The notes under the pieces: generated by a model
The model's input: the letters and a program-made list of their open reading frames with translations, nothing else
What the model was told of the DNA's origin: nothing
Databases searched by the model: none
In this document: piece after piece, positions 39,538-51,527 of the stretch
Layout of the letters: each line of letters opens with the position of its first letter
How positions within the stretch are numbered: the first letter of the stretch is position 1
NCBI GenBank assembly: GCA_015063895.1
Contig: SVTG01000003.1
Location: forward strand, 97,253 to 161,252
Origin: Oscillospiraceae bacterium
GTDB taxonomy: Bacteria > Bacillota > Clostridia > Oscillospirales > CAG-272
Reading direction: 5' to 3'
DNA length: 64,000 nucleotides
Program-made: the position numbers and the translations under genes

Positions 39538-39565
39538 TCCTTTCTCCTCCGATTATTTACTCTTC

Positions 39566-39611
39566 TAGGCAGGCGTGAATAATCCGCACTCGGATGATTT
39601 ACTCCTGCCTA
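39566..39611. repeat. 46-bp near-perfect palindrome sharing termini with the 50539-50817 element
   Basis: TAGGCAGGCGTGAATAATCCGCACTCGGATGATTTACTCCTGCCTA. Confidence 0.8.
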
Positions 39612-49995: not shown

Positions 49996-50036
49996 CAAAA
50001 AAGCGCTCCGCCACGTGCGGCGGAGCGCTTTTATTT
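49996..50036 (-). terminator. Terminator
   Basis: AAAAGCGCTCCGCC ACGT GCGGCGGAGCGCTTTT. Confidence 0.85.
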
Positions 50037-50524
50037 TAATGTTTGCCGCCCGTCAGCATCTGCTGTAAGGCTTGGTCGTATGCTAACAGGATCTCGCATT
50101 TTCCGTCCCCGTTTTCAACAAAGAGCAAGAGCCCCTTGCGCGGTGCCATATCGGGATGATAGTTGTAGCGACGCGTGCCGTGCGGCGGCTTTGCGTTTTC
50201 CCCGTCAAGCAGCGATACCGCCACGATCTCCTTCAGTCCCACGCGGCACACCAGCTGCATACGGGCACCGCCGCGATAGGTAAAGACCTCAAGATCAACG
50301 CCGCCGTCATCGCGCGGGCGAACACGGTAAAGGTATTGCAAAACAAGGTAGCGTGCCGTGATCTGAATGAGTGGGATCAGTAAAACAAGCCCCAGGCATT
50401 GCAGGAGCGCGGGATATTGCGGCACCAGCGAGGAGGCGGCAAAGGATGCGACCGCCAGCAGCAGCAATGCCGCCGCCAGCAGCTTTGCCCTGCTGCTTGT
50501 GCGCGTTGGTCTTAATTCATACAT
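50036..50524 (-). CDS. Hypothetical membrane protein (162 aa)
   Basis: Two TM segments; RBS GAGGT 6 nt upstream of ATG. Confidence 0.7.
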   Translation of the reverse strand: MYELRPTRTSSRAKLLAAALLLLAVASFAASSLVPQYPALLQCLGLVLLIPLIQITARYLVLQYLYRVRPRDDGGVDLEVFTYRGGARMQLVCRVGLKEIVAVSLLDGENAKPPHGTRRYNYHPDMAPRKGLLLFVENGDGKCEILLAYDQALQQMLTGGKH

Positions 50525-50538
50525 AACTGCACCTCACT

Positions 50539-50817
50539 TAGGCAAGCGTAAATAATCCAAACTCGGTTTCAAGAAACAAATATCCGCATCTGCATCAGAG
50601 AATTTTCTTATAATATCCGCATATTATCGCAAAAATTCTCTTTGCATCTGCGAAGATTTGCTCTCTTAAAACTCGGAACGACCCTCAAGCTTTGATTTTT
50701 TGAGTGATTTTTTTACTTGGCGCTCGCCGCCAAGTGTGGACTTTGCAAGAGTGACAAGTACAAAAAGCGCCAAAAAGCAAGGCTTGAGGGCGGGTTCGGA
50801 TTATTTACTCTTGCCTA
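50539..50817. mobile_element. MITE-like non-autonomous element (279 bp, 26-bp TIRs, TA ends)
   Basis: TAGGCAAGCGTAAATAATCCAAACTC ... GGGTTCGGATTATTTACTCTTGCCTA (22/26 matching as inverted repeats), nested internal hairpins, no ORF of its own. Confidence 0.78.
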
Positions 50818-51527
50818 CCCGAAAGCGCGCTTGCCTCGTCCTTTGTCAGCTTGCGCGACAGCCATTCACTTTCAAAATGATACAGGCGCAGCGTGCCATA
50901 GGGTGTCGCCTCGTAATCAACGGCCTCGCCGTAGTAAATATCAAAGTAAAGCACAAGCGTGTCGTCCTTTACCGTCACGTCATCAAAGGTATAAACGAAA
51001 TAGGTATACAGTGCCGTGGTCGTCACGGTATGGGAGGTGGGCGCCGTGCGCGTTTTGGCAAGGCTCTCGCTCCCATCCTTATTGTCTGTAGGATCGTCGG
51101 GGGTCTGATCGGTGATCGTGACCAGTGATACGTCAAAGACCTCTGTACCGCGCGCAGGACGCTCGGCCAGCTCAAAATCGCGTTGCGTATATTTCAGGGT
51201 GCTGTTATTATAACGGAACAGCACCTGCACCTGAGAGATCTCGGGAATATACACAAACTGCGGCACGGAAAAATACCCGTAATTTTCCTCGCCCTTCGTG
51301 ACCGTGGCCTGCTCCTGCGTCAGCAGCTCGATATCCTCGCCCTTTTCGGCATAAAGCGCCACCAGCCGCTCGTTTGAAACGACCCCCTTTACCTCCTTCG
51401 GGATCTTGCCCGAAAAGTAAACGCGCCACAACAAAAATGCCACCATCACGAAAATAGCAAGCCCCAAAAGACCGTACAGGATCTTACCTGCGATCCACCA
51501 GTAATAGCTTTTTCTCGGCCTGGCCAT
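50805..51527 (-). CDS. Hypothetical membrane-anchored protein (240 aa)
   Basis: N-terminal TM; stop codon lies inside the right TIR of the 279-bp element. Confidence 0.72.
   Translation of the reverse strand: MARPRKSYYWWIAGKILYGLLGLAIFVMVAFLLWRVYFSGKIPKEVKGVVSNERLVALYAEKGEDIELLTQEQATVTKGEENYGYFSVPQFVYIPEISQVQVLFRYNNSTLKYTQRDFELAERPARGTEVFDVSLVTITDQTPDDPTDNKDGSESLAKTRTAPTSHTVTTTALYTYFVYTFDDVTVKDDTLVLYFDIYYGEAVDYEATPYGTLRLYHFESEWLSRKLTKDEASALSGRQE

Follow-up and report, generated by a model that had tools for sequence, protein, structure and literature searches.

Small mobile elements whose transcripts are predicted to fold tightly have been described in several bacteria, and the closest of them to the element reported here are RUP, Correia/NEMIS and ERIC. 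Like it, they are small and intergenic, carry TIRs that end in TA, and are accompanied by a TA duplication (PMC2229807, PMC3049150). RUP is thought to be moved by IS630-Spn1 (PMC2229807, PMC3049150). They are about 100-200 bp long and form one long hairpin, whereas the present element measures 276-280 bp and is built of a TIR stem and two arms. It is further set apart from their published descriptions by the opposite polarity of its arms, strong compensatory evolution and the lack of a resident transposase.

Three other systems share part of this design. The CIR elements of Caulobacter and Brucella consist of two long hairpin arms with a linker between them and have TA at their termini (PMC2229807), but they are without TIRs or end-to-end pairing and expose GANTC in a loop; the element described here has ends that are paired along ~25 bp and GYGG-like loops (GCGG and GTGG), which places it outside the CIR group. 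REPINs likewise consist of a hairpin with compensatory changes, have a fixed length and form tandem clusters (PMC3116915). Unlike them, the present element has a TA target duplication and TIRs of 24-26 bp, and the RAYT resident in its host neighbours another palindrome. The IS630/Tc1/mariner transposons resemble it in their TA target, its duplication and the length of their TIRs, but neither a PF13358 transposase nor an autonomous copy was found in any host examined. These published accounts describe MITEs with one hairpin, CIRs that have two arms and no TIRs, and REPINs whose hairpins show compensatory changes; the combination found in this element is not among them (PMC2229807, PMC3049150, PMC10969869, PMC3116915).

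The element and its surroundings

The window, by which we mean the whole stretch of 64,000 nucleotides that was analysed, holds one full copy, flanked by two genes on the same strand (Table 1). An earlier note, made from the letters of this DNA, had described a 279-bp MITE-like element here, and the element, its ends and its interior repeats all lie where they had been placed, the repeats AGAGAATTTT/AAAATTCTCT, CCCTCAAGC/GCTTGAGGG and ACTTGGCG-CTCGC-CGCCAAGT being present letter for letter. Two details needed revision. The 26-bp inverted ends are real, but they agree at 23 positions and not at the 22 that had been counted. The hairpin proposed at 50715-50735 exists as sequence, but the conserved consensus fold does without it: there, AAGT (50732-50735) is paired with ACTT (50740-50743), and GTGG forms the loop between them. 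No open reading frame of the element's own stands out, as had been supposed. The TAA of its right TIR (50805-50807, read on the - strand) is the present stop codon of the 240-aa gene.

Table 1. Positions of the element, its parts and its neighbours in the window
Feature	Position	Strand	Evidence or remark
Full element, family A, TA at both ends	50539..50817 (279 bp)	+	4 full genomic copies; copies in relatives; empty sites of other copies
TA, left half of target duplication	50539..50540	.	single-TA empty sites for L015, L026
TA, right half of target duplication	50816..50817	.	single-TA empty sites for L015, L026
Left TIR	50539..50564	+	outer TAGGCAAG and inner ATCC(G/A)AAC conserved
Right TIR	50792..50817	-	23/26 to left TIR
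Arm A, long imperfect hairpin, better folded on -	50566..50672	-	apical loop GCGG on - (50617-50620)
Arm B, long imperfect hairpin, better folded on +	50682..50790	+	apical loop GTGG (50736-50739)
162-aa gene, no Pfam family	50036..50524	-	start codon 15 bp from element
240-aa gene, no Pfam family	50805..51527	-	last codons and stop inside right TIR

The TIR pattern has four matches in the window, against none expected. Folding of both strands, which had been proposed as a check, gave energies far beyond chance on each: -116.2 and -122.2 kcal/mol with RNA parameters (z of -10.9 and -11.9 against shuffled sequence), and a z of -11.0 with DNA parameters.

Dispersed copies and empty sites

The genome from which the window comes (G000, 1.86 Mb in 36 contigs) contains four full copies that are 96-100% identical, plus several fragments, and matches were found in 16 genomes among 59 relatives. 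A search of 21 genus genomes for the TIR pattern, with one mismatch allowed, found it in 12, in copies of constant length; a reversed control pattern gave no match. Full copies depart from the usual length in one instance, of 328 bp, and TIR pairs at any spacing other than this and ~280 bp were absent from the loci fetched, plasmids and unbinned metagenome contigs lying outside that search. Insertions occur in either orientation. The named records with full copies are ruminant-gut MAGs, for example RGIG and SIG from sheep, water deer, roe deer and yak.

To find empty sites, the flanks of 21 copies were joined with a single TA and the genus was searched. The site of a copy on contig C14 of G020 is empty in G014, with flanks 98% identical and exactly one TA, and that of a copy on contig C80 of G012 is empty, again with one TA, in both G000 and G015. 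Another site is known in three states, being full in G014, internally deleted in G020 and empty in G003 and G019. At the window site itself nothing interrupts G012, whose sequence has, however, diverged precisely at the insertion point. The TA target duplication, with which the earlier note had found the ends compatible, is borne out by single TAs at the empty sites of other copies.

The element is jumping DNA, and the genus of uncultured bacteria from ruminant guts in which it occurs carries it in many copies. The MITE-like reading gains its support from the copies in its own genome, their constant length across the genus and the single-TA empty sites. The defining attributes of a MITE are present: TIRs, no transposase gene, a length within 50-500 bp, dispersed copies, and a target duplication seen from empty sites; insertion is TA-specific. 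An autonomous element with matching TIRs, which is common for MITEs though no strict part of their definition, did not turn up in the loci fetched. A locus-specific structure, which the earlier note had set against its own reading and which is taken here as regulatory and not mobile, found no supporting point and is in effect ruled out by the dispersed copies and the empty sites.

Insertion also leaves its mark on neighbouring genes and on other copies. In 7 of 27 classifiable copies (read from -2 gaps), the neighbouring gene uses the element's initial TAG as its stop codon. In G018, copies follow one another head to tail every 276 bp and have one TA in common (CTTGCCTAGGCAAG). Such arrays were seen on its contigs C21 and C18 (L063-L065); several run to contig ends, which suggests that they represent longer, collapsed arrays.

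Phage and plasmid collections held no match to the element. One record filed as viral (L136, IMG/VR UViG 3300018475_004864) is probably not evidence of viral carriage, because a bacterial MAG contig with the same element copy matches it at 99.97% identity over 3869 bp. The contig search also returned many matches to the TIR pattern in distant taxa; these stand alone, with no second end, and are due to chance. Further MAGs have TIR ends that are related but enclose other interiors, at L079, L080, L106, L116, L119, L128 (MAG RUG14213) and L087 (Ruminococcus sp. SUG119).

Sister families and derivatives

A recurrent flank adjoining family A, GGTTCG(A/G)TTCCCGTGCGGC, was considered as the end of a tRNA; no tRNA was found, and it turned out to be one end of a sister element. 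This family B has the TIR TAGCCGCACGGGANTCGAAC, a length of 279-280 bp and the same Y fold, and examples lie directly beside family-A elements (L019:1208-1486 and L057:7044-7323). A and B stand in tandem with one common TA in G002, G012 and RGIG9844. A third family, C, with the TIR TAGCCAGGCGAAAATAATRCGAAC, occurs in G007. Across the three families, the plan of the fold, arm lengths of 110-112 and 113-116 nt and the apical hairpins are kept, and most other sequence, the TIRs included, differs. In kind they are TA-duplicating MITEs, and they constitute new families, distinct in design from RUP, Correia and ERIC as these have been described.

Shortened forms are also found. A 46-bp derivative at 39566..39611 consists of two family-A TIRs only, its arms lost, and abuts a decayed right-end remnant (CCGATTATTTACTCTTCTA) at 39549-39567 with a TA in common. 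Mini-elements of ~75 bp (L069, L090, L006, L066) keep the TIRs and lack most of the arms; several would be accounted for by a deletion between the direct repeats GCAAGAGTGA, which in related copies lie at positions 4-13 and 207-216. Right-end fragments (L084, L059, L062, L007, L021) start near position 202, and left-end fragments (L058, L060) stop near position 78. These recurrent breakpoints are the apices of the two hairpin arms, and cleavage of the hairpins is one possible cause.

A conserved fold with opposed arms

An RNAalifold consensus drawn from a MAFFT alignment of 30 copies comprises a TIR stem and two hairpin arms of ~110 nt, with 92 pairs in all. Compensatory changes, on both sides, occur in 44 of the 92, and 96.4% of cells are paired. 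Doubly changed cells number 183, against 45 in shuffles that leave relatedness in, and none of 500 such shuffles reached so high a value. Sliding by one column lowers pairing to about 50%; as this same alignment had served to derive the structure, the comparison is generous. The middle of the TIR, a hexamer in the left end, is not conserved between lineages, but the two ends covary. The whole element is one conserved fold, kept by compensatory change.

The two arms favour opposite strands. For arm A the - strand gives the better fold in 29 of 30 copies, and for arm B the + strand does so in all 30; families B and C have the same polarity. When the pairs common to the predictions for both strands are counted, arm B has 17 G-U and 3 A-C cells, and arm A 13 and 25. 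A mutation bias acting along the whole strand would give both arms the same sign and cannot be the cause. The preferred strand of each arm is the one with its 3' end at the nearer terminus, which would be the transferred strand in DDE transposition.

The history of the pairs depends on which copies are compared. Between lineage consensuses, 1687 changes are compensated, against 973 that are one-sided and broken and 942 that are one-sided and still paired; these counts are pairwise and not independent, the same ancestral changes being counted repeatedly. Among copies within one genome, 36 paired cells have changed, of which 34 are one-sided, one is compensated and one doubly broken. Where two species carry a copy at one and the same site (L027/L031 and L029/L030), 14 pairs have changed; none of them is compensated and 10 are broken. 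Both of the latter samples are small. Compensated changes among spreading lineages, with few among recent or same-site copies, favour selection during spread, and the fold appears to come under selection as the element propagates and not at its resident site. A two-arm fold with arm-specific strand polarity, maintained in spreading lineages and not in resident copies, is an unusual constraint and a well supported one.

These observations bear on two further explanations. Correction of quasi-palindromes is an established mutational process, and the element is strongly palindromic. It might then be an ordinary MITE whose imperfect palindrome is continually corrected by template switching during replication, so that compensatory pairs arise without selection. 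We regard this as rather unlikely. The changes within genomes and at shared sites, uncompensated with a single exception, argue against it, and against selection at the resident locus; the conservation of apical loops and arm lengths also counts against it, and it does not predict an excess of G-T over A-C that runs in opposite directions in the two arms.

Alternatively, transcripts of the element might act in the cell, for example as an RNase III substrate, a transcript insulator or a small RNA, and so select for the fold. Such a mobile RNA would be consistent with the tolerance of G-U by arm B on the + strand and by arm A on the - strand, with the position of the window copy between two same-strand genes, and with the processing of related MITE transcripts in Neisseria (PMC10969869). 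It is nevertheless unlikely: resident same-site copies decay without compensation, insertions lie in either orientation, neither a promoter-like site nor a convincing terminator was found in the element, and an Rfam search of it returned no family above the gathering score.

Search for the mobilising enzyme

Searches for a mobilising enzyme covered the PF13358, DDE_Tnp_1, rve and Y1 families. The earlier note had pointed to IS630/Tc1/mariner transposases; the TA footprint agrees, but no IS630-type transposase or autonomous partner with these TIRs was found. PF13358 is absent from all 21 genus genomes, G000 included, and from four other element-bearing genomes. It occurs in 17 of an order sample of 295 genomes, in none of the f1-family genomes listed, and the PF13358 loci that were fetched are without this TIR, nor did an autonomous transposon with the same TIRs appear among the fetched loci. 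DDE_Tnp_1 (IS4/IS5-type) is likewise absent from the 21 genus genomes. Transposases of the rve family were rejected as mobiliser, being present in only three genus genomes and without such TIRs. The genomes are metagenome bins, which often lose plasmids and repeats, and an external source of the mobiliser is therefore plausible.

Y1 matches, of IS200 or RAYT-like type, were found in 10 of the 21 genus genomes. One of these, in G000 (L177, G000:C17:21013-24321), is a divergent, single-copy RAYT-like gene that is absent from the window; the palindrome GTAGGGGACGGCGCCCTCGACGTCCC occurs three times within the gene or close to it. Single-copy RAYT-like genes in several hosts, G000 among them, together with the compensatory hairpin changes, fixed length and tandem clusters known of REPINs (PMC3116915), invite a reading of the element as REPIN-like, moved as single-stranded hairpin DNA by a RAYT (Y1, HUH) enzyme. 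This is quite unlikely. Y1 enzymes would not be expected to duplicate a TA target, a Y1 match is missing from the copy-rich G018 and is of IS200 type only in G012, and no resident RAYT linked to the element was found. The Y1 and RAYT genes were judged unrelated to it because they carry their own palindrome, which in G000 both neighbours and interrupts the RAYT.

Discussion

Whatever moves it, the element is mobile, duplicates TA, keeps a constant length and compensates its Y fold. The reading that we prefer, with a probability of roughly 0.6, is that of a non-autonomous, TA-specific transposon (MITE) that is moved in trans by an enzyme outside the assembled host genomes and that needs a folded, single-stranded form to spread. 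It inserts at TA and duplicates it, and the transposase is most probably TA-specific, of IS630/Tc1/mariner-like type, and carried elsewhere. Those copies would propagate in which the fold is kept, and a folded single strand, of DNA or RNA, or the hairpin arms beside each end, may take part in transposition. The window copy sits between two genes of a putative operon and provides the upstream gene with its stop codon; its presence there calls for no host function. Against this reading stand the 25 hosts without an autonomous partner or IS630-type transposase (21 of the genus and four further), and the fact that no observation requires a single-stranded step in a mariner-type reaction.

A bolder proposal, which we hold as a tentative possibility, is that small mobile elements of this kind form a superfamily whose only way to propagate is as a folded single strand. 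Its two hairpin arms, each read on the strand with its end at that arm's own terminus, would be recognised by a non-DDE enzyme or by RNA-dependent machinery that still leaves a TA duplication. If true, secondary structure would be obligatory for transposition outside the IS200/IS605 and REPIN systems.

The tight folding of bacterial MITE transcripts has usually been remarked on and left without explanation. Here, spreading lineages, recent copies and old same-site copies are brought together in one data set, and pairing is maintained by double changes only in the first of these. This makes it directly testable whether the fold is needed for jumping or for tolerance by the host. The element is also the sign of a TA-specific mobilising system at work in gut bacteria, in whose genomes few conventional transposases turned up.
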